The translations under genes were made by a program, and so were the position numbers. Of a stretch of DNA of 38,092 nt, positions 22,947 to 37,429 are shown in pieces. Position 1 is the first letter of the stretch. Each line of letters begins with the position of its first letter. The DNA comes from a virus. The notes beneath the pieces were generated by a model. That model was not told where the DNA came from, ran no database searches, and was given only the letters and a program-made list of their open reading frames with translations. Location of the stretch: positions 1 through 38,092 of the IMG/VR virus record IMGVR_UViG_3300005264_001020; one strand, 5' to 3'.

Positions 22947-24194
22947 TCATTCCTCCTTCAGAAGCTCTTCTCTAACTTCTAAAAGATCATAAGTTTTACC
23001 CTCTCTAATTAATTTAATATCTTCTTTGCCACTATTTAAATATCTCTTTACTATTGCATCTGCATATCTAGGATCTAATTCCATAGTTCTGCAGATCCTA
23101 TCTAGTTCATCACATGCCATCAGAGTAGAACCACTTCCACCAAATAGATCTATAACTATATCTCCTGGTTTTGAACTATTCTTAATTGGATAAGCCAATA
23201 AATTTAAAGGTTTCATAGTAGGATGAATATCATTTCTACTAGGTCTATCAAAGTTCCAGACTGTAGTTTGTTTCCTATCTGAGTACCAGTTATGGGCTTT
23301 ACCGGGCTTCCATCCAACTAATATTGGTTCATGTTGCCAATGGTAATCCTGCCTCCCCATAACTAAACTATTTTTTACCCATACACAGCACTGAGCAAAA
23401 TAGAATCCTGCATCTTTCATAGCTTTTCTGAAATTAATACCTTCAGTATCTGCATGAAATACATAGATCCCGCCTCCATCGTCTAAACTTTCATACACTC
23501 TTGAATATGAATCTAATAGAAAGTCATAAAAATTAGAGTTTGAAACATTGTCGTTTTTAATGGTTAATTTATCTTTAGTTTTACCCTCATAATTTACATT
23601 GTAAGGAGGGTCTGTTACTACTAGCTGCCCTTTTTCTTCTCCCATGAGTAATTTAACCTGATCTTTGTTTGTAGCATCACCACAAAATAGTTTATGATCA
23701 CCTAATATCCATAGATCATTTAATTTTGAATATGGTTCCTTTTCAAAATCTATCTCTGGGACTTCATCTTCATCTATTACACGATTATGATCTGCTAAAT
23801 TTAGGTTTATGTTTTCTATCTCATCTAGATTAAACCCTGTAATGACTAGATCACCATCCATTATCTTTATGGCATCTAACTCTAATTTTAATTTTTCCAT
23901 ATTAAACCCGGTATCCATGGTTAATTTATTATGAGCTAAAATATATTGCTTCTTTTGAACTTCTGATAGATGGGATAGTCTTATTACATCTACTACATCG
24001 CAGCCTAATTGCTGTAAGGCTATTACTCTTCCGTGCCCTTCAATCAGAACATTCTTCTCATCTACTGCTACAGGATCGTTAAATCCAAACTCTTTTATAC
24101 TGGCTTTGATCTTGTCTATTTGTTCCTGGGGATGCTCCTTAGCATTATTAGCATAGTGGACTATATCCTCAATATTTAACTTTTCTATTTTCAT
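22947..24194 (-). CDS. ParB-domain / DNA (N4/N6) methyltransferase fusion
   Basis: This 415-residue protein has two parts. Residues 1-100 are a ParB/Srx-like domain (IEGHGRVIALQQLG, 51-64). Residues ~150-400 are a beta-group methyltransferase: DPPY (195-198, catalytic) comes before the SAM-binding FGGSGSTLMA (351-360), with HPTMKPLNLL between them. Such fusions are common in phages, and their methylation can protect phage DNA or mark replication origins. ATG 24194 follows GGAGGTGAATCT. A longer in-frame reading to 24305 has no ribosome site. Target sequence unknown. Confidence 0.85.
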   Translation of the reverse strand: MKIEKLNIEDIVHYANNAKEHPQEQIDKIKASIKEFGFNDPVAVDEKNVLIEGHGRVIALQQLGCDVVDVIRLSHLSEVQKKQYILAHNKLTMDTGFNMEKLKLELDAIKIMDGDLVITGFNLDEIENINLNLADHNRVIDEDEVPEIDFEKEPYSKLNDLWILGDHKLFCGDATNKDQVKLLMGEEKGQLVVTDPPYNVNYEGKTKDKLTIKNDNVSNSNFYDFLLDSYSRVYESLDDGGGIYVFHADTEGINFRKAMKDAGFYFAQCCVWVKNSLVMGRQDYHWQHEPILVGWKPGKAHNWYSDRKQTTVWNFDRPSRNDIHPTMKPLNLLAYPIKNSSKPGDIVIDLFGGSGSTLMACDELDRICRTMELDPRYADAIVKRYLNSGKEDIKLIREGKTYDLLEVREELLKEE

Positions 24195-24307
24195 AGATTC
24201 ACCTCCTTCACGTATATTTATAGAGATATTACAGAGGTGAGTTGTTTTAGGAGGTCCACCTAATGTAATATCTTTAAAAATATACAAATTAATTTCTACA
24301 TTCAACT

Positions 24308-25163: not shown

Positions 25164-25193
25164 AAAAAAAGAGCCAAAATTATCTTTTGGCCC
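25164..25193 (-). terminator. terminator of the accessory/defence operon
   Basis: A 9-bp stem (GAGCCAAAA / TTTTGGCCC, one G-T pair), a 5-base loop and seven T on the minus strand, 10 bp after the stop of the D12 methyltransferase gene. A textbook rho-independent terminator. Confidence 0.9.
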
Positions 25194-25203
25194 TTAGCAT
25201 TTA

Positions 25204-26052
25204 CTAATTATTTATTTTTTCAAATTTTTTATTCTTCAAATTATCACTAAAAATAACAACTTCTTTTGCTCTTGTTTTTATAGCTGCACTATATGTAATT
25301 CCATATTCCTCTAGATGAAATTTTTTATAAATTTCTTTTATTTCATTTACATTATCATAGGTGATTATCCAGTTATAATTTTTTAATTTTCCTATAGTTT
25401 TAGCTACTTTTTCATGATCATCATGTAAATAATGATTTTCATATAATCCAGGACCTTTTTTATAATATGGTGGATCGAAAAAAGTAAATGTATTTCCTTT
25501 TTTAGGGATAATAATTTTTTTTATAAAAACAATAGCATCTACATTATGAATTTCAATAAATTTTTTATATTCTGCTATTTTTTTTATTCTTTTTATAAGA
25601 CCTTCTTTATTAAACCTACAATCAATAAGGTAATTACCATTTTGTTCTTTCCCACCTATAGGTCCACCTTTTAAAATACCAGATCGATTAGTTCTATTTA
25701 AAAAAAATGTGGAAAATCCCAATGTTAATAATTGAATATTTTCGTTTGATTGTATTTTTTTTTGTTTTTCCCATTCTTTTAAATTTATAGGTGTATTTCT
25801 TATTAATTCACAAAATTCATCTGTATAATTTAATATAGAATACCAAAAAGCATATACCGCTATATCGTAATCATTTAGTATAATTTTTGATACATCACCT
25901 TTTAAAAGAAGTTTTAATGCTAATCCTGCTCCTCCAGCATATGGTTCAATATAAGTAGGTTTTTTTATAGCATTTTCTTTAAATAAAGATATTAAATTGT
26001 CATATACTTTAGTTTTTCCTCCTGGATACCTCAATGGAGATGCAAATGCCAT
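25204..26052 (-). CDS. D12-class adenine-N6 DNA methyltransferase (Dam-like)
   Basis: This 282-residue enzyme transfers methyl groups to adenine N6. It shows all family motifs in order: PLRYPGGKTK (residues 6-15), the SAM-binding IEPYAGGAG (35-43), LLTLGFSTFFLNRTNRSG (108-125) and the catalytic DPPY (193-196). Length fits Dam-like enzymes. It is the last gene of a four-frame operon with ParB-like and AAA-TOPRIM proteins, 13 bp after the latter. This suggests a restriction- or defence-like unit in which methylation marks self or sets the system's state. Recognition site is unknown. Confidence 0.9.
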   Translation of the reverse strand: MAFASPLRYPGGKTKVYDNLISLFKENAIKKPTYIEPYAGGAGLALKLLLKGDVSKIILNDYDIAVYAFWYSILNYTDEFCELIRNTPINLKEWEKQKKIQSNENIQLLTLGFSTFFLNRTNRSGILKGGPIGGKEQNGNYLIDCRFNKEGLIKRIKKIAEYKKFIEIHNVDAIVFIKKIIIPKKGNTFTFFDPPYYKKGPGLYENHYLHDDHEKVAKTIGKLKNYNWIITYDNVNEIKEIYKKFHLEEYGITYSAAIKTRAKEVVIFSDNLKNKKFEKINN

Positions 26053-26065
26053 AATATTTAACCTC

Positions 26066-27682
26066 CTATTTTTTTAAAATTTCTTTTAATGAATAATTTA
26101 AAGATGTAGTTTTATTTTCATATATATTTTTAAATACATTTACGAATTTTATTATATCACCTTTATTATCTTTTGGCCAATGCTTTAAAAAGAGTTTAAA
26201 ATAATGTTCTCCTTCTTTTCCTTTTTTAAAAGCGTTTTTACAAGAATCATTCTTTTCCAAGTTTATATTTAATTCATTAAAAATTTTATGCATGAATAAT
26301 TCTTTAGTTAACCCTTCTCCTGTCTTCGCCCAAATAGAATTTTCATTGTCTTTGTTATTCAAATAATTTAAAATTTCTTTTTCCAATGCTCCTTCTAAAC
26401 AAATTTTCATTGCATTATCTTTTTTTAATGCGTCTTTTTTTCTTACATCACCATCATAAATTATAATTGAATTTTTAAATTCTTCTAAATTACTATTAAG
26501 ATAATCTAATTGTTGGTAACTGAAATCTACATTTACAAAATCAATTTTTGAAATAGATATTTTATTTGTCTTTAAAATTTCTTTCATAAATTTTATGACC
26601 ATACCATCTTCTGTATATATTTTTATTTTTTTCTTTGTTAGAGATAAATCAATTTTAGCAGTAATATCAGCTTTAACTTTAATAAATGAATCTACATTGT
26701 CAGCTATTATTACTTTTTTCCCACGCTTATCTAAATATACCAATTTAACTTCCGATGGATTTTTTTTAAATGTTCTCTCTAATATTTCTAATGAATGTGT
26801 AGTCATAACAATTTGCAACTTTAATTTTTTAGATTCATTTAAAAGAAGGTCAAATAATTTAATTTGTGATGCGGCAAAAAGAGTTGCGTCTATTTCGTCA
26901 ATCAATAGTAATCCACCTTTATATTCTTCTTTTAATTTTTGTTCTAATCGTTTAAACGAAAGTAATGAGATAAGTATTTTACCAATATTATCTTGTCCAG
27001 ATGAATTACTAAAAAAATCATAATAATCAGTACTTGTTCCTATTGTATCCATTTTATCTTTTGAAACTTTTTTTGTAGTTATTTCGTCAGTTTGATATAA
27101 AATATTATTATAATTTTTTTTTAACCACTTTTCTTCTTTTTCTGATAAAACTACTTCACTAGAATTAATATTGGCAGCTTCTCCTATTGGAAAAATTCGA
27201 CTTAATCCTAGATAAAGTGTGGGATAAACAAAATCTTTGTATACACCATATGTTCCAAAATTATCATCTATAAAATGATTAAATCTAATATTCTTTCCTT
27301 CATGGTTTTTGGGATTTTTAACATTACGAGGTTTTGTATTTAAATAGCATTTTGTTTTTTCAAATGATTCCGCAAAACTAAGAGTATATTTATGTTCTTT
27401 TGCTATATCGAAAGTTGGAGAAAACTTGAAAAGTTTAGAAAAATTAGTTTCAAACGGTTTCCCTAAAATGTCTAAATAATTATTTTTCTCTTCTTCAGGC
27501 AATCCTTCATCTTTCTTAGCAAAATATTTAGCACCATAGAAAGAAAATGGTTGTCCTAAAAGTCCTAAAATAGTTGATTTAGAAGTTCCGTTTTTTCCTG
27601 CAATAACTGTTAAATTTTTCCCTAAATTTATTTCTGTATTTTCAAACCCCCTTAATTTTATTATATTCATTTTTTCAATCAT
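26066..27682 (-). CDS. AAA ATPase with C-terminal TOPRIM-like domain (OLD / fused PARIS-like)
   Basis: This 538-residue protein has an SMC-like ABC ATPase in residues 1-345: Walker A GKNGTSKST (29-37), signature SSGQDN (227-232), Walker B LLLIDEID (258-265) and the H-switch TTHS (His296). Residues ~350-530 start with IYTEDGMVIKFMKEIL (Glu358) and contain IIIYDGD (Asp410, Asp412), the acidic pattern of TOPRIM nucleases. The plan matches OLD-family defence nucleases and PARIS systems with AriA and AriB in one chain. It overlaps the upstream small frame by one base and is followed by a D12 methyltransferase, so an antiphage role is likely. Confidence 0.75.
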   Translation of the reverse strand: MIEKMNIIKLRGFENTEINLGKNLTVIAGKNGTSKSTILGLLGQPFSFYGAKYFAKKDEGLPEEEKNNYLDILGKPFETNFSKLFKFSPTFDIAKEHKYTLSFAESFEKTKCYLNTKPRNVKNPKNHEGKNIRFNHFIDDNFGTYGVYKDFVYPTLYLGLSRIFPIGEAANINSSEVVLSEKEEKWLKKNYNNILYQTDEITTKKVSKDKMDTIGTSTDYYDFFSNSSGQDNIGKILISLLSFKRLEQKLKEEYKGGLLLIDEIDATLFAASQIKLFDLLLNESKKLKLQIVMTTHSLEILERTFKKNPSEVKLVYLDKRGKKVIIADNVDSFIKVKADITAKIDLSLTKKKIKIYTEDGMVIKFMKEILKTNKISISKIDFVNVDFSYQQLDYLNSNLEEFKNSIIIYDGDVRKKDALKKDNAMKICLEGALEKEILNYLNNKDNENSIWAKTGEGLTKELFMHKIFNELNINLEKNDSCKNAFKKGKEGEHYFKLFLKHWPKDNKGDIIKFVNVFKNIYENKTTSLNYSLKEILKK

Positions 27683-27876
27683 TATTTTTTCTCCTCTACT
27701 TCATCCCAAATTTTTTCTATAAATATTTCAAAATTATCCCAGTGTGTTTTTAAATCGTTAGAAGTTGGAGAATGACTTTTATTATGAATATAATTATTTA
27801 ATGTAGTAATTGAAAAAAGGTGATCTTTTGTTGAAATTACGGTATTAATAATTTTTAGTTCTTCTCTATCCATCAT
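27682..27876 (-). CDS. 64-residue protein, possible detached C-terminal domain of ParB-like protein
   Basis: The sequence (TTLNNYIHNKSHSPTSNDLKTHWDNFE) recalls the C-terminal end of larger ParB-like or HEPN-type proteins, where YxHNxxxxPxxxxLKxxWDN is conserved. Its start (ATGATG at 27876) overlaps the ParB-like frame and has no ribosome site, only a run of nine A. One base fewer in that run would join it in frame to the ParB-like protein. So it may be made as a fusion by slippage, translated by coupling, or be the relic of an internal deletion. The last base overlaps the ATPase start. Confidence 0.5.
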   Translation of the reverse strand: MMDREELKIINTVISTKDHLFSITTLNNYIHNKSHSPTSNDLKTHWDNFEIFIEKIWDEVEEKK

Positions 27877-28963
27877 TTTTTTTTATATCTATTGTTTTTA
27901 ATTCTGTAAAAATGTTGTTTATTCGTTGTGGTTTTATTTTTAATCTGAAAGGTACAGGTATTAAAAACTTTCTTGTTGTTGTTGTTGGATATGAATTAGG
28001 TTTTTTATAAAGAGGTTTTAAATTATTCTCCCTCATGTGTATTATTTTAGTTAAATCATTTGACTCTACGCCCTTTTTTTCATCTGCATTTAAAATGATT
28101 TGGTTATTTCTAACCAAAGGTCTTTGAGTTGATTGTCTACTTTCTTCACTACTTCCCTTTTCTTTAATTCTGCTACTTATTTTTGAAATATAATCAACCC
28201 TTTTTTCTTTTGTATAAATATCTCCGACCTTAATTTTTTTATCCATTAAATCTTTTCCAATTTCTTCAAGATATTCTATTGTCTTTTCAATTTTTTTATC
28301 TTCTCTTAAAAAAAGATCATTCTTTTTAAAATTAATACCTATAACTTCTCTAATATTCGGATCTGATAATAGTCTATTTAAATTTGTTAAAGGGATATTC
28401 CCTAATTTGTTTTTATAACTGTCATTAAAATTTCCATATTTTTCAAGTAATTTTAAAACATTAATTTCTTTTGATGTTTCATTTTTATATCTCCCTTGAA
28501 ATAACTGTTGCTGTTGTGTTGTCCAAGAAACAATACCTTTTCCTTTATTTTCTCCTGTATGTTTTAAATCTATCCAATATAAAGCATCTTTTTCATTTTC
28601 AAAATTAATACATTCTATTTTGTCTATTGGATTTTTCATGAATTTTTTATGAAGACGAGTAAATCTTTTGAATAAATTTACATCTATATTTTCTATAAGT
28701 TTAGGATTTCTCAAGAGTTTCAAAGATGTGACTCTTCTATTTCCTTCTAGAACTATATATTTTCCATTTTTCTTTGTTGTTATAATATTTTCAGAGGGAT
28801 TTAATCCTCTTTCTAATATATCCAAAGCTAAAGGGTATATTTTATCTTTTTGATTTTTTAACATTGATTTTAAAGATTCAATTTCACTTTGGCTTTCTTC
28901 TAACCTTGGATTTCTAAAATCTAAACCTATTTTATCTAGATCTAGCAGTATTTTATTTTTCAT
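27866..28963 (-). CDS. ParB/Srx-domain protein (DNA-binding or nuclease-like), defence operon
   Basis: This 365-residue protein has an N-terminal ParB/Srx-like domain (residues 1-110) with KYIVLEGNRRVTSLKLL (69-85), whose EGNRR is the family's nucleotide-binding box. A helical middle follows (ENKGKGIVSWTTQQQQLFQ, residues ~137-155), then a basic region and an end with FRLKIKPQRINNIFTELK. ATG 28963 has GAGGAG seven bases upstream. It opens an operon with an AAA-TOPRIM protein and a D12 methyltransferase. ParB-like proteins with CTP- or ATP-binding folds recur in defence loci; the function here is inferred. No ParA neighbours it. Confidence 0.7.
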   Translation of the reverse strand: MKNKILLDLDKIGLDFRNPRLEESQSEIESLKSMLKNQKDKIYPLALDILERGLNPSENIITTKKNGKYIVLEGNRRVTSLKLLRNPKLIENIDVNLFKRFTRLHKKFMKNPIDKIECINFENEKDALYWIDLKHTGENKGKGIVSWTTQQQQLFQGRYKNETSKEINVLKLLEKYGNFNDSYKNKLGNIPLTNLNRLLSDPNIREVIGINFKKNDLFLREDKKIEKTIEYLEEIGKDLMDKKIKVGDIYTKEKRVDYISKISSRIKEKGSSEESRQSTQRPLVRNNQIILNADEKKGVESNDLTKIIHMRENNLKPLYKKPNSYPTTTTRKFLIPVPFRLKIKPQRINNIFTELKTIDIKKNDG

Positions 28964-29037
28964 TAATTTCTCCTCTTTTATAATATTATCGGATTTTAAA
29001 AAAAATTCATTTAATAGCTCTAGTATTGTCTCTATCT

Positions 29038-30126
29038 TTATTTTATAATTAATGGAATAGTATAATTAAAATTCCTTGAAAACTCTTCACAGACAATAGA
29101 AACTTTTATTTCAAATTTTCCTTTTTTCAATGGAACTACAAAAACAGGATCTTTGAAAGGAAAAGTAGATACTCTTGTATGCATCAGTTCTTGAAGTCTT
29201 ATTGTAATAGTATTATTTTCTCTTACTATGAAATTTATATCTTTTATTCTTAAAGAATTATTAGTTTTGATGAGATCACGAGCTTCAACTTTTTTTAAAG
29301 TGTTTAGCTTTGATTCTCTAATTATTATTGCTTCTTCAGGAAAGGTAACATCTACAATTATATTATTTGCTTTAGTTGTTCCTATATTAGCAATGTTAAA
29401 CTCTAAATTATAACGATTATTTAGAATCATATTATATACATCTTTTGAAAGTGATTCTTCTTTTATTTTTTTACATTCAATTTCTAAACTTTTTTTATTA
29501 TTTATTTTAAGAGACATTTCAGGAGCTCTTTTCTCTTCTAAAGTTTTCTCTAATTTCTTTTTTAATTCTCTATTTTCTTTAGTTAATAATGCCATTTCAT
29601 TAGCTATTTCAGGATTTATTGCTTGATCTCCTCTAACCCATCCTATCCTTGGATTAGTAGCAAAAGATTTATAGAGTGCCATTAATATTTTACTCTCAAG
29701 ATCTTCTTCTGTTTTCCAAAAATCACACATTTTATTATCCATTGCTTTTTGTCTAAACGTTTCTAGTTTTATTTTAAAATCAGGATCTGGTTCTCTCTCA
29801 TTTTCCTTTGTAGCTACATCGTTGTCCCTTATAAAACTTAGTACTGGAATTTCTAATGATTTAGCATAGTTATATTCCATTTCTGTATATCCTATACCTT
29901 CTGGACTTAAACTTCCATATCTATGTCCTAAAATTAAAATATAATAATCAGTTTTATCTATTATTTTAGTTATCACTTCCCATTGACTTTCATTACCAGC
30001 ACTAAAAAGTTCCATGCCTACTGGAAAATGATATGATTTTAATATCGCATCAGATACTTTTTTTCTAGCTGGAATAAGATCTTTATACGTTGAACTAATA
30101 AAAATTTGATATTTTTTACTTTCCAC
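29038..30126 (-). CDS. DUF4062 (TIR-like) protein with coiled coil and beta-sandwich domain
   Basis: Residues 1-105 are a clear DUF4062 domain: YQIFISSTYKDLIPARKKVSD, GMELFSAGNESQWEVI, DYYILILGHRYGS, GYTEMEYNYAKSLEIPVLSF. DUF4062 is TIR-related and often forms the N-terminal part of STAND-type immune proteins. Residues ~180-200 are a charged coiled coil. The rest (205-362) looks like an Ig-type beta-sandwich (EFNIANIGTTKANNIIVDVTFP). There is no NTPase, so this would be a short sensor/effector. The start is GTG 30126 after AGGGGGAG. I infer defence or stress sensing. Confidence 0.75.
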   Translation of the reverse strand: MESKKYQIFISSTYKDLIPARKKVSDAILKSYHFPVGMELFSAGNESQWEVITKIIDKTDYYILILGHRYGSLSPEGIGYTEMEYNYAKSLEIPVLSFIRDNDVATKENEREPDPDFKIKLETFRQKAMDNKMCDFWKTEEDLESKILMALYKSFATNPRIGWVRGDQAINPEIANEMALLTKENRELKKKLEKTLEEKRAPEMSLKINNKKSLEIECKKIKEESLSKDVYNMILNNRYNLEFNIANIGTTKANNIIVDVTFPEEAIIIRESKLNTLKKVEARDLIKTNNSLRIKDINFIVRENNTITIRLQELMHTRVSTFPFKDPVFVVPLKKGKFEIKVSIVCEEFSRNFNYTIPLIIK

Positions 30127-30578: not shown

Positions 30579-31541
30579 TTAAAATTTTAGCCAAGGTTTA
30601 GAGTATCTATATTGCCCATTACTATTTTTAGATTTTATAACTGCATAATGAATGTCAATATTGTCATCTTTGGTTATCGATTTAAAAAATTCTTTTATAT
30701 AATCATTATTTTGATTTTTTGAAATCAATTTTAAAAGTTCTTCTCCTATTTTTGTAAAACCTAAAATAGGAATTTGATATTGATCAGTATTTATTTTTTT
30801 TACTTTTCTAATCAGGAATTTGTTATATATAAAATAGTTTATTGTATTTTTATTTTTTTTTGGAAAGGTAAACACAACATCAGATTTAGATGATAATAAC
30901 CCTGTATCTATTAATGTAATTTGATCACTAATAAATACACCATATTTTTTTAGGAGATTTGTTTGATTAGGTAAAAAAGGGATTTTTTCGTATGTTATCA
31001 TAAGATTAGCAACTTTAGTAAATATTTGAGCTTCTTTTTTAGTTAGATTTCTTAATACTTCTAAAGTTTTTAATGAATATTGTCCTGATTCTTCTACTTC
31101 ATCAGATAATATTTTTGCCCATAAATTCTGAGCTTCTTCATTTGTTATTTTTTTTGCATAATCAAAATATCTATCTATCCATTCATCTTCTAATTCTCTA
31201 GCCGAAACTTTTTCTTTCCCCTCTAAATTTTTTGTAGCTTTAACTACAATATTTTCTAGGTTCTGCTGTTCTTTTTCTGCTTGATATTTCATTCTTAATT
31301 CACTTCTCTCTCCTACAGTTGTTTCTATAATTGCTCCAGGAATTATTTCTTTTAGTCCATTTGAAGCATTAGATATAGCTTTAGTATTTGCTTCTGTTAT
31401 TTTTTCTAACCTATATGACTCTGCATCTGCCATTTTTTTTAAATGCCGCGGTTCATATACTATTCCAATTCCTTTTGATGTAACTTTTATCAATTTAATT
31501 AATGGCTCTTTAAATCCAAATAAATCTGTCATTTCCACCAC
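30579..31541 (-). CDS. DUF2806 domain protein
   Basis: This 320-residue protein matches DUF2806: an N-terminal GFKEPLIKLIKVTSKGIGIVYEPRHLKKMADAE, a long charged helix, and then WIDRYFDYAKKITNEEAQNLWAKILSDEVEESGQYSLKTLEVLRNL (about residues 126-171), the family core. The function of DUF2806 is not established. The start is GTG 31541, seven bases after AGGAGG; ATG 31532 is an alternative. In this cassette it follows the small membrane protein by 11 bp, so they form one transcript. Confidence 0.75.
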   Translation of the reverse strand: MVEMTDLFGFKEPLIKLIKVTSKGIGIVYEPRHLKKMADAESYRLEKITEANTKAISNASNGLKEIIPGAIIETTVGERSELRMKYQAEKEQQNLENIVVKATKNLEGKEKVSARELEDEWIDRYFDYAKKITNEEAQNLWAKILSDEVEESGQYSLKTLEVLRNLTKKEAQIFTKVANLMITYEKIPFLPNQTNLLKKYGVFISDQITLIDTGLLSSKSDVVFTFPKKNKNTINYFIYNKFLIRKVKKINTDQYQIPILGFTKIGEELLKLISKNQNNDYIKEFFKSITKDDNIDIHYAVIKSKNSNGQYRYSKPWLKF

Positions 31542-31809: not shown

Positions 31810-32898
31810 TTAGTTTTTCACTACTTCTAAAAACTCCTCTTCTGTCAAAATTTGAATAGTTCCTAGTTCTTCAGCTTTCTTTAATTTACTGCCTGCTTTT
31901 TCACCTATAATTAAAAAGTCTAAAGACTGATTGACTGTATTTATATTTATTCCACCTAATCTTTCTATCTCTTCCTTTATTTCTTTTCTTGTAAAGTGAG
32001 CTAATTTTCCTGTACACAGAAACTTTTTACTTTTAAATTCTTCTAAATAATCTTTTCTAACTCTTTTTTTTCTCTCAAAATTAATTCCTAACTCTTTTAT
32101 CTTTAAGATTTCTTCTCTTTTTTGAGGAGTATTAAAATATCTATATAATTTGAATGGAACAACTACTCCTAGTCCAACTTTATTTAAAAAATTATTTATA
32201 TCTTTTGTTTTTTCTAGAAGTTCATCCAAAGTTTTAACTTTTTTAGTAATTAATTTTGCATAATGTTCACCAATACCTTCAATTCCTAATCCGACTATAA
32301 AATCATTAATATTTTTATTCACTTTACTTTCTTCTATTTTGTTTAATATTTTATCTATACTTTTTTCAGGAAAGTATTTATTTTCTATAATTTCATCCCT
32401 ATACTTTTTTAAATTATAATAATCACTTATTTCGTTTAAATATCCAAACTTTACTAATTTTTTAATTTGAGTAATGTTGATCCCAAAATCTAACCCATCT
32501 TTTTTAGCAAAGTTTTTAAATTCTCTTGAGATCTCTTCTTTAGAAATATTTTTATATGGATTTTTTACATTTATCTTTTTTTCTAACTTTTCTTTCAATA
32601 ATAAAGCTATTTGTTTCTCTACATCTTCTTTTTCATAAAAAATAGGTTCAAAATATTCTGAATAAATATCATTTATTCTTGAATCTCTTATAAAAAGATT
32701 TAAATTAATAAATTCTAGTAAATTATCAGAAATTAAACAATCTAAATCTCCATGGAGAAACCTTATTATATGTTCACAAATTTTTTCTTCTTCTGGGCAA
32801 TTACAAACTATATCTTCTAAAATATTATTTTCCATTTTACAGTTTACTTCATATACTGTTTGATTTTCTCCATTTATTTTAAATTTTAATATTTCCAT
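31810..32898 (-). CDS. SWIM zinc finger - HhH - BRCT protein (LigA C-terminal-like)
   Basis: This 362-residue protein lacks the adenylation domain of NAD-dependent ligase but shares its C-terminal half. Near the N-terminus is a SWIM-type zinc motif (Cys32, Cys34, Cys41, His43). Residues ~195-265 carry helix-hairpin-helix motifs (INDFIVGLGIEGIGEHYAKLI). Residues ~285-360 are a BRCT domain (KKFLCTGKLAHFTRKEIKEEIERLGG...FLIIGEKAGSKLKKAEEL). Both halves bind DNA or DNA-repair partners, so a role in DNA-end sensing or repair control is plausible. It is the first gene after the repressor, 25 bp downstream, so it is probably expressed in the lysogen. Confidence 0.75.
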   Translation of the reverse strand: MEILKFKINGENQTVYEVNCKMENNILEDIVCNCPEEEKICEHIIRFLHGDLDCLISDNLLEFINLNLFIRDSRINDIYSEYFEPIFYEKEDVEKQIALLLKEKLEKKINVKNPYKNISKEEISREFKNFAKKDGLDFGINITQIKKLVKFGYLNEISDYYNLKKYRDEIIENKYFPEKSIDKILNKIEESKVNKNINDFIVGLGIEGIGEHYAKLITKKVKTLDELLEKTKDINNFLNKVGLGVVVPFKLYRYFNTPQKREEILKIKELGINFERKKRVRKDYLEEFKSKKFLCTGKLAHFTRKEIKEEIERLGGININTVNQSLDFLIIGEKAGSKLKKAEELGTIQILTEEEFLEVVKN

Positions 32899-35864: not shown

Positions 35865-36035
35865 ATGAAAAAACAAAAATTAAGACCAAATCATCAAGAA
35901 ATAATAGCTATGAGTTTAGAAGATCTAAACTTCATATTAAAAAGTGAATATGTATTAACCAATAGACAGACCAAGCAAATCAAATCAGAGATCAAAAGAA
36001 AAAGAAGAATAACAGGGCAAAAGGTGATTGTCTAA
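35865..36035 (+). CDS. 56-residue basic small protein before ParA
   Basis: ATG 35865 follows GGAGGCAAGAA. The product is basic (ending IKSEIKRKRRITGQKVIV) and helical, and its stop shares a base with the ParA start (TAATG). Not recognised. Position suggests translation with ParA; a small DNA-binding helper or repressor of the par operon is possible. Confidence 0.55.
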   Translation: MKKQKLRPNHQEIIAMSLEDLNFILKSEYVLTNRQTKQIKSEIKRKRRITGQKVIV

Positions 36036-36751
36036 TGGCTAAAGTGATTTTATTTAAAAATAATAAAGGAGGAGTGGGAAAATCATTATTATGTTTCTGG
36101 ACTGCCCACATCCTTTCCACATTATCAAAAACAAGTGATGGTAAGAAAAACAAAGTGCTGATCCTAACATCTGATTCACAAAACAACATCATGCAGATGG
36201 CAGGGACTAAATCAGGCTACGGTGATGGACTTCAAGGTTATATTGATGGTAGAGCTTCAGACCTAATCAGATTAAGAGAGGGCTTATTCTATGTGCCTCT
36301 TACAAGCACTGGAATAAAAAGAACTTTTGAAACTAGATTCCTGGATGTGATAGAAGTTTTTAAAAGCCAATATGACTATATCCTAATAGATGGCTCACCA
36401 GTATTAAAATTAGATAATATCTTTCTAGAGGTGAGTGACAAAGTAGTAATTCCTACTTTCCTTGATAATGTAACCACTAAGGGAATGATTAACCTTATCA
36501 AAGAAGTAGGAGTAGATAAAGTGGCTCTAATTGTACCTAATAGAGTGGGAAAAAGTAAAATGGAACGAGAACACCTAAATAAATTAAAAAAGAGCCTGGA
36601 AGGGGTAGGAGTGACTATTACCGACCCAATCTTTCAAACTACAAAAATCATGCAGCTCACAGAAAAATCTAAAACAATCATGGAAACAAAGAGTAAACAA
36701 TATAATAATATAAAACAGATCTTTGCAAAAATTGTAAAGGAGGTGATGTAG
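36035..36751 (+). CDS. parA: ParA-type partition ATPase
   Basis: This 238-residue protein has the deviant Walker A KGGVGKS (residues 11-17), the ParA/MinD hallmark. A Walker B-like strand YDYILIDGSP follows near residue 110, then VVIPTFLDNVTTKGMINLIKE. ParA drives segregation of plasmids and of phage-plasmids such as P1 and N15. The next gene overlaps closely and is the probable partner. Presence of ParA in a prophage with an integrase remnant suggests extrachromosomal maintenance at least in part of its life cycle or ancestry. Confidence 0.85.
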   Translation: MAKVILFKNNKGGVGKSLLCFWTAHILSTLSKTSDGKKNKVLILTSDSQNNIMQMAGTKSGYGDGLQGYIDGRASDLIRLREGLFYVPLTSTGIKRTFETRFLDVIEVFKSQYDYILIDGSPVLKLDNIFLEVSDKVVIPTFLDNVTTKGMINLIKEVGVDKVALIVPNRVGKSKMEREHLNKLKKSLEGVGVTITDPIFQTTKIMQLTEKSKTIMETKSKQYNNIKQIFAKIVKEVM

Positions 36752-37429
36752 ATGGATGTATTTGGAGAACTCCAGGAGGCAGTAAAAAAAGAGATATATG
36801 TTTCAAATTTTGATTTCGGGAGTCGCGAAATTGAAAAAGAAGATATTGAGTTCATAAAAAATAGTGAGCAGAAATTAAGAAAAAGGTTTATGGGAATATC
36901 TGAATCGCTCTATGATATATGTATAACTCTCAATCAGGTCTCTTTAAAATTTAAAAAGTCTGGTGATTTTATGGACTGGTATGAAGCCAATGGGCTTACA
37001 AAAGATAATATCTCAGAGTTTAACAAGAGATTTATCTTGTTCCAGGAATTTGGCGATAAAAAAGACTTCATTGCATCTCTCTCTACTCAATCTGTAAAAT
37101 TTTTAACTCATAAAGATGTTACATCAGATGCTAGGGAAAAAATAATTGATGGTGGAATAAAAAAAGCTGAAACTATCAAAGAACTTTTAGCTCCTGTAAA
37201 GGATCAGATAGCAATTGAATTTAAGAAGAAAACTAAAAGTTATGTAAACTATAAAAAATTAGAGAAGATGAAAGTTAGAATTACAAAAGTAGAAGATGGG
37301 AATGAGTTAAACTCTTTAAAGGCGGATTTAGATGCCTTAGCGATCCATTTAAAAGATATGAAACAGGCTGTTAAAGATAAGGAAAAAGAGTGGGAACATA
37401 AAAATAATTTGAAGTTGGTGAAGGGGTAG
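36752..37429 (+). CDS. probable ParA partner / centromere-binding protein
   Basis: This 225-residue protein follows ParA directly (the ATG is next to the ParA stop, with AGGAGGTGATG upstream), the place of ParB. It has no canonical ParB box. It is helical, with RKRFMGISESLYDICITLNQVSLKFK (43-68), DWYEANGLTKDNISEFNKRF, and a C-terminal coiled coil. A non-canonical partition partner is the simplest reading. A 19-bp inverted repeat lies within codons 21-27 of the gene, which would allow binding to its own gene. Confidence 0.55.
   Translation: MDVFGELQEAVKKEIYVSNFDFGSREIEKEDIEFIKNSEQKLRKRFMGISESLYDICITLNQVSLKFKKSGDFMDWYEANGLTKDNISEFNKRFILFQEFGDKKDFIASLSTQSVKFLTHKDVTSDAREKIIDGGIKKAETIKELLAPVKDQIAIEFKKKTKSYVNYKKLEKMKVRITKVEDGNELNSLKADLDALAIHLKDMKQAVKDKEKEWEHKNNLKLVKG
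36813..36831. repeat. 19-bp inverted repeat, site D (inside ParA-partner gene)
   Basis: ATTTCG-GGAGTCG-CGAAAT, perfect 6-bp arms, 60 bp into the gene after parA. CG-containing words are rare in this AT-rich sequence, which makes the match notable. Proximity to parA links the site family to partition. Confidence 0.85.

Follow-up and report, generated by a model that had tools for sequence, protein, structure and literature searches.

A prophage operon combining the PD-λ-5 gene families with an OLD-like ABC ATPase-TOPRIM gene, a probable exchangeable effector in anti-phage defense

In experiments with E. coli, PD-λ-5 (Vassallo, Doering and Laub 2022) confers broad protection; an mrr-deleted host was required, and the discoverers of the system labeled it a compacted prophage RM+Abi system (PMC9519451). 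We found the same A and B families, B being a methyltransferase of the D12 class, in a prophage of Fusobacteriota (IMGVR_UViG_3300005264_001020; the 38,092 nt analyzed are hereafter the window), where an operon was confirmed on the minus strand at 25204-28963. Unlike PD-λ-5, the window has a gene for an ABC ATPase-TOPRIM protein between A and B, and its A is truncated. PD-λ-5 consists of the two genes A and B, and its PADLOC model does not include the ATPase, so the locus is a variant rather than the standard system. An initial annotation had proposed an undescribed defense operon in the prophage accessory region, and the PADLOC matches to PD-λ-5 A and B support the defense assignment. The word "undescribed" does not hold for the ParB-like protein with the methyltransferase, which is the known PD-λ-5; it does hold for the joining of both with a TOPRIM ATPase, which is not in PADLOC.

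The three frames of that annotation lie where it had placed them, all on the minus strand (Table 1), and they overlap or nearly touch as described: the ATPase start codon overlaps the stop of the preceding frame (TAATG at 27682), the ATPase and methyltransferase genes are separated by 13 nt that include AGGAGG, and a shared hairpin terminator follows. The ParB-like gene, however, is broken compared with its relatives, and a fourth frame encoding its severed end had been overlooked. Similarity to a sister prophage starts at 29027, directly past the unrelated upstream gene. Hence, the leader travels with the operon.

Table 1. Features of the operon in the window
Feature	Position	Strand	Basis and remarks
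Leader 5' of gene A	28964..29027	-	blastn of window vs sister prophage L319
PD-λ-5 A, main fragment, 365 aa	27866..28963	-	PADLOC PD-Lambda-5_A E 6.6e-94; ParB/Srx-like domain with GNRR motif at the N terminus, then a linker; HEPN domain at the C terminus shortened
Site of 146-nt deletion in A and frame change, at nine-A run	27876..27885	-	comparison with intact sister gene
Severed C-terminal piece of A, 64 aa	27682..27876	-	PADLOC PD-Lambda-5_A positions 408-465/466, E 5e-17
OLD-like ABC ATPase-TOPRIM, 538 aa	26066..27682	-	Pfam, PADLOC, phrog_3940 E 4e-97
PD-λ-5 B, D12-class N6-adenine DNA methyltransferase, 282 aa	25204..26052	-	PADLOC PD-Lambda-5_B E 2.7e-118; Pfam D12
Intrinsic terminator ending operon, 11-pair stem, T tract	25169..25195	-	z = -3.4

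The ATPase frame is complete, with all catalytic residues present. Pfam detects an ABC-type head (AAA_15, E 1.5e-10), in which we located Walker A (G29-N31-K35), the signature (S227-G229), Walker B (D262-E263), and the His switch (H296). The OLD-like TOPRIM pattern named in the initial annotation (Glu358, Asp410/Asp412) is well founded: E358, D410, D412, and K482 are invariant in 81 homologues, position 434 is E or D in all of them, and the structural model has the TOPRIM order of strands and helices. Residues I427-C428 deviate from an otherwise near-invariant Leu-Pro. Sequence profiles match structures of PtuA, OLD nuclease, and AriA, and the fold matches GajA, OLD, retron-Eco8, and PtuA; the VIA comparison of the ATPase concerns mainly the head (residues 1-347).

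HEC-04/IbfA, for which anti-phage activity has been reported (PMC12111858), likewise fuses an ABC ATPase and a TOPRIM in one protein and is matched by the window ATPase at 8e-16. It was reported as a single gene, whereas the window ATPase belongs to a distinct family, phrog_3940, that goes together with a D12 methyltransferase. OLD family nucleases and Gabija GajA share the ABC head, the TOPRIM, the conserved E, DxD, and Lys, and the fold; unlike GajA, the window ATPase has a methyltransferase as partner in place of a GajB neighbor, and we found no UvrD-like GajB helicase among the ORFs at 21.9-31.5 kb. PARIS (AriA/AriB) also brings an ABC ATPase and a TOPRIM to prophage defense hotspots. However, TOPRIM is fused in one chain here, and no DUF4435/AriB match, separate or fused, was found at E <= 1, so the locus is not PARIS, whose fused form was among the comparisons of the initial annotation. 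The ATPase-TOPRIM effector of retron type I-B is the top PADLOC profile for the window ATPase (E 5e-19, residues 236-470); neighboring ORFs contain no reverse transcriptase domain. With these partner genes absent, we rejected assignment to Gabija, PARIS, or retrons. A variant in E. coli P2-like prophages (L301) has the same A-like and B families and a third gene, which is unannotated and, rather than encoding an ATPase-TOPRIM, looks PD-(D/E)XK nuclease-like by motif, with no Pfam match.

The annotated D12 adenine methyltransferase was borne out by Pfam (E 1e-16) and by DPPY at residues 193-196. B appears to be intact, judging from its complete frame and retained catalytic residues.

Pfam detects no ParB-like fold in the window's own A, and a sequence profile of A found no relative of solved structure. 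The ParB-like label is nevertheless supported by an intact homologue (L110), whose predicted fold matches ParB-CTP structures with Z about 10 and rmsd 2.1, the middle region being barely covered. Fold comparison of its C-terminal domain gives HEPN matches, AbiA and HEPN toxins among them, at Z 8-10; since HEPN is a small helical bundle, these values are only suggestive of a HEPN domain. Intact A proteins are thus predicted to be fusions of a ParB fold and a HEPN fold. A partition ParB has a ParB-CTPase fold followed by a helix-turn-helix DNA-binding domain. Across 44 aligned A homologues GNRR, one Arg, and one His are invariant. The usual HEPN ribonuclease motif is R-x4-6-H; in A the invariant Arg and His lack this spacing and the conserved stretch is LNxYxH. 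Hence, ribonuclease activity of A is only putative.

Relative to the intact sister gene, the window A lost 146 nt that include two HEPN helices and is now split into 365 + 64 residues. The lost segment is kept in all 44 homologues. The 64-residue tail, which still carries the invariant His, corresponds to the later half of the HEPN domain and is 95% identical to the intact sister. Even with slippage at the nine-A run, about 49 HEPN residues would be absent. The exact junction sequence is in no other viral contig; hence, both programmed frameshifting and a shared deletion are unsupported. Compared with the sister, dN/dS is about 0.12 for A residues 1-265, 0.02 for the severed tail, and 0.15 for B. 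The purifying selection seen in the tail indicates that the break is recent; alternatively, the deletion may stem from misassembly.

The sister prophage has an intact A and a methyltransferase 93% identical to that of the window, whereas its ATPase is just 38% identical. Hence, ATPase replacement took place as a cassette; prophages that are nearly identical elsewhere differ by exchange of this putative nuclease gene.

Co-occurrence of the three families in other genomes, which the initial annotation had named as a check, was confirmed among 80 genome loci retrieved via the ATPase alone. A methyltransferase lies within 3.5 kb of the ATPase in 69 of these loci and farther out in only 2, which is far beyond chance. 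A is also present in 34 of the 80, in at least five gene orders and from Bacteroidota to Fusobacteriota; these three-gene loci have one methyltransferase each, and their genes often overlap. On the ATPase tree the three-gene state is dispersed, which forces at least 11 changes. Hence, the three-gene form is a recurrent PD-λ-5 variant across many phyla. The ATPase and methyltransferase stand without A in 35 of the 80 loci and in most viral loci, and the pair of A and methyltransferase stands without the ATPase in many phages and in E. coli, where the two-gene PD-λ-5 form was located in P2-like prophages. Flank clustering around 103 two-gene ATPase-methyltransferase loci found no gene family replacing A in most of them (largest cluster, 29 loci). 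All relatives came from alignment queries; scanning the genome and viral collections with single proteins returned none.

The operon is almost certainly an anti-phage locus, and the window copy presumably serves in defense as well. We favor, with somewhat better than even confidence, a prophage defense locus in which the PD-λ-5 pair takes the OLD-like ABC ATPase-TOPRIM as an exchangeable effector cassette. For the methylation motif, the trigger, the nuclease target, and the role of each arm, we infer the following. B would methylate a motif common to the whole family and so mark host and prophage DNA as self. The ATPase-TOPRIM would be kept inactive on marked DNA or without infection, and invading DNA or a sensed phage factor would lead it to cut nucleic acid with metal ions at E358, D410, D412, and E434. 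A would be a nucleotide-gated, DNA-bound switch that frees a HEPN ribonuclease as an abortive back-up. With the HEPN half of A deleted in the window phage, this abortive arm would be disabled; hence, the working unit here is most likely B with the ATPase-TOPRIM, a pair that many prophages carry by itself. The broken A of the window copy and the departure of its ATPase from Leu-Pro count against the favored account. A classical restriction enzyme must recognize the motif of its methyltransferase; the swap of the nuclease with the methyltransferase kept is odd for such an enzyme and also counts against it.

The three genes may instead not act together, A with B and the ATPase-TOPRIM with a methyltransferase being independent systems that were juxtaposed with loss of the redundant methyltransferase. 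We regard this as plausible though doubtful. Each two-gene form does exist alone, and one locus (L270) looks like a snapshot of the merger: A comes first, next a broken methyltransferase spread over three frames, and last the ATPase with an intact second methyltransferase. The five arrangements of the triple across phyla, with one methyltransferase and frequent overlaps, are more than one would expect of repeated accident. It is possible, if rather unlikely, that the ATPase-TOPRIM is no restriction nuclease and acts, like PARIS, as an abortive effector whose target is RNA or host nucleic acid; the trigger would be inhibition of the methyltransferase arm by an anti-restriction protein. This would agree with the AriA-like sequence matches, and exchange of the ATPase at a constant methyltransferase is easier to reconcile with a phage sensor that varies than with a sequence-specific restriction enzyme. 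OLD-ABC/TOPRIM modules are presented as back-up suicidal effectors beside modification systems in PMC12839542. However, the DUF4435 domain is absent, and the fused architecture and residues suit OLD/GajA DNA nucleases.

The 146-nt deletion raises the alternative that the window phage carries a decaying, inactive locus, or that only the methyltransferase matters, shielding prophage DNA from host restriction. This is unlikely, as the other two frames are complete with their catalytic residues, the ATPase-methyltransferase pair is common without A, selection on the A tail dates the break as recent, and the deletion may not be real. A role for A in prophage partition, with the other two genes as unrelated neighbors, is highly improbable and was rejected. 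A ParA-like gene (phrog_164) is present at 36035-36751 and A has a ParB fold, but A is encoded on the opposite strand 7 kb away, bears a HEPN-like domain, and keeps its link with the methyltransferase in different phyla, and ParA has its own neighbor gene at 36752.

Beyond the favored account, we tentatively suggest that the three genes make up a single immune system, with interchangeable nucleases licensed by a shared methylation mark (the ATPase-TOPRIM here, possibly the PD-(D/E)XK protein in E. coli P2-like prophages), and with a ParB-HEPN switch as abortive back-up, the effector cassette being swapped by prophages and the mark kept.

PADLOC holds no system with the three-gene combination, we found no paper naming or describing it, and it is unmentioned in the passages retrieved from PMC12704722 (a ParB-fold survey), PMC10853773, PMC12839542, and PMC9122126. 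ABC-ATPase conflict systems were surveyed earlier, in work that is cited in PMC12839542 and may list OLD-TOPRIM operons with methyltransferases, which would be a possible prior notice of parts at the genomic level. We found no paper on the mode of action of PD-λ-5. Surveys would seem to count such loci as plain PD-λ-5, or as an orphan methyltransferase with an ATPase, and so miss the combined form. PD-λ-5 is broadly protective. Reading A as ParB-HEPN, the recurrent third component, and the near-identical prophages with differing ATPases together give an experimental handle: phage specificity can be compared directly between two different ATPases that accompany the same A and methyltransferase.

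The initial annotation regarded the operon as a candidate undescribed defence system. We found that this does not hold for its ParB-like protein (A) and D12 methyltransferase (B), which PADLOC identifies as the known two-gene system PD-λ-5 (PD-Lambda-5_A, E 6.6e-94, and PD-Lambda-5_B, E 2.7e-118), but that it stands for their recurrent combination with the ATPase-TOPRIM gene, for which we found no name in the open-licence literature searched. This third gene is an effector of a known type. The three frames, their strand and tight packing were all confirmed on re-examination, and the terminator proposed at the operon end was found as an intrinsic one.

PD-λ-5 was discovered by functional selection, blocked nearly all tested phages, and was labelled a compacted RM+Abi system by its authors, who used an mrr-deleted host (PMC9519451). 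The E. coli pair, annotated as a ParB N-terminal domain protein and a DNA adenine methylase, lies in P2-like prophages between replication and portal genes. L110, an intact A homologue, is predicted to fold into a ParB-CTPase domain (Z ~10 and rmsd 2.1 over 95 residues against ParB-CTP complexes) and a C-terminal domain that resembles AbiA, sacsin, HEPN toxins and Csm6 at Z 5-10, which is suggestive of HEPN, such values for a helical bundle being no proof. The 44 A proteins compared all share GNRR, one Arg and one His; in the methyltransferase family, the central region FLNRTNRSG...GG is nearly invariant.

The ParB-like gene is split in the window, since a 64-aa frame that the initial annotation overlooked matches the tail of the same family. 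A nucleotide-level search through 98 Fusobacteriota genomes identified a close relative of the window phage (sister prophage G056:C4), whose operon holds the same position among different accessory neighbours and whose A is intact (476 aa). Relative to it, the window A lacks 146 nt, which removes two central HEPN helices including the invariant Arg, and shifts frame at a stretch of nine A; the missing segment is kept in 44/44 aligned homologues. Between the two prophages, dN/dS is 0.12 for A residues 1-265, drops to 0.02 in the severed tail and is 0.15 in the methyltransferase. Hence, A was under selection until recently, and the deletion is either a recent event or an assembly error.

The ATPase falls in phrog_3940 (E 3.7e-97), a family without an assigned function, and neither NCBIfam nor Pfam gave a specific name. 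Among PADLOC profiles, it best matches the retron I-B ATPase-TOPRIM, HEC-04 and GajA; anti-phage activity has been reported for HEC-04/IbfA, an ABC ATPase-TOPRIM protein (PMC12111858). The predicted structure (mean pLDDT 89.8) matches GajA, OLD nuclease, retron-Eco8 and PtuA, with residues 1-345 resembling SMC/Rad50/PtuA heads (Z 15-18). All 81 homologues have G29, N31, K35, S227, G229, D262, H296, E358, D359, D410, D412 and K482, and each has E or D at position 434, in agreement with the SMC-like head and TOPRIM pattern (Glu358, Asp410/Asp412) first read from the sequence.

At DNA level, the window and the sister prophage share mostly 90-98% identity across the first 265 codons of A, its 3' end and the methyltransferase, and 74-86% in A's linker, whereas over most of the ATPase the figure is 41-61% (up to 74% at the start), with the ends of the ATPase gene marking the borders. 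Their A proteins are 86% identical, the ATPases 38% and the methyltransferases 93%. Hence, the ATPase was replaced as one unit. In other locus pairs, too, the methyltransferase (81-85%) is better conserved than the ATPase (26-31%), a contrast that may be partly due to quicker ATPase evolution.

We found that the three families also co-occur elsewhere: among 80 genome loci gathered by ATPase alignment alone, 69 have a D12 methyltransferase within 3.5 kb of the ATPase, and 34 of these 69 also have A. Hosts include Bacteroidota, Pseudomonadota, Bacillota and Fusobacteriota, the gene orders seen are A-MT-ATP, ATP-A-MT, A-ATP-MT, MT-A-ATP and ATP with divergent MT-A (MT, methyltransferase; ATP, ATPase), and the ATPase tree requires at least 11 changes of three-gene state. 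Viral contigs mostly carry ATPase and methyltransferase or A and methyltransferase, and several, such as Vibrio phage ValB1MD-2, carry all three. Locus L270:5923-10998 holds A, a methyltransferase broken across three frames, the ATPase-TOPRIM and a second, intact methyltransferase, as expected if triples arise from two pairs joining, and is a possible intermediate. In ValB1MD-2 (L002:7464-9016), A is two overlapping genes, gp42/gp41, split at a different point from the window's.

We propose that B would provide the self mark, the ATPase-TOPRIM would act as an exchangeable ATP-dependent nuclease and the ParB-HEPN protein would form an abortive arm. Sequence comparison supports the self mark and the folds; the trigger, motif and targets are what we infer. 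Exchange of the nuclease beside a constant methyltransferase suggests that the family shares one motif, an option consistent with the nearly invariant methyltransferase region, or that phage, not sequence, is what the ATPase senses. In the window, methyltransferase and ATPase are both complete, and this pair without A is a common unit in other loci.

The sister prophage has an unrelated gene in place of the DUF4062 gene, indicating a variable accessory slot. The DUF2806 gene is a candidate further accessory defence gene, the ligase-like protein apparently lacks the catalytic domain, and the ParA-like and phrog_32652 genes may be a prophage partition pair. The ParB-methyltransferase fusion is a second phage methyltransferase, separate from B.

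Features in and around the operon
Feature	Position	Strand	Match or remark
ParB-like domain fused to N6/N4 DNA methyltransferase	22947-24305	minus	phrog_498, E 1e-163
Intrinsic terminator	25195-25169		operon end
64-aa frame	27682-27876		between ParB-like frame and ATPase; last 58 positions of PD-Lambda-5_A (PADLOC)
DUF4062 protein	29038-30126	minus	E 3e-27; directly upstream of A
DUF2806/TIGR03899 family protein	30579-31541	minus	also a very weak Abi_alpha match
NAD-dependent DNA ligase match	31810-32898	minus	C-terminal part only; phrog_3869
ParA-like protein, then phrog_32652 gene	36035-37429	plus	phrog_164 (ParA-like)
Short ORF, 122 aa	37633-38001	plus	partial integrase match; near right end of record

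An E. coli prophage locus (L301:5950-9122), of a type present in 20 complete E. coli genomes, combines an A-like protein and a D12 methyltransferase with an unannotated protein bearing a PD-(D/E)XK-like motif (DAGIDVIAW...FAQVAS). A comparable trio in phage Wphi includes a cytosine methylase.
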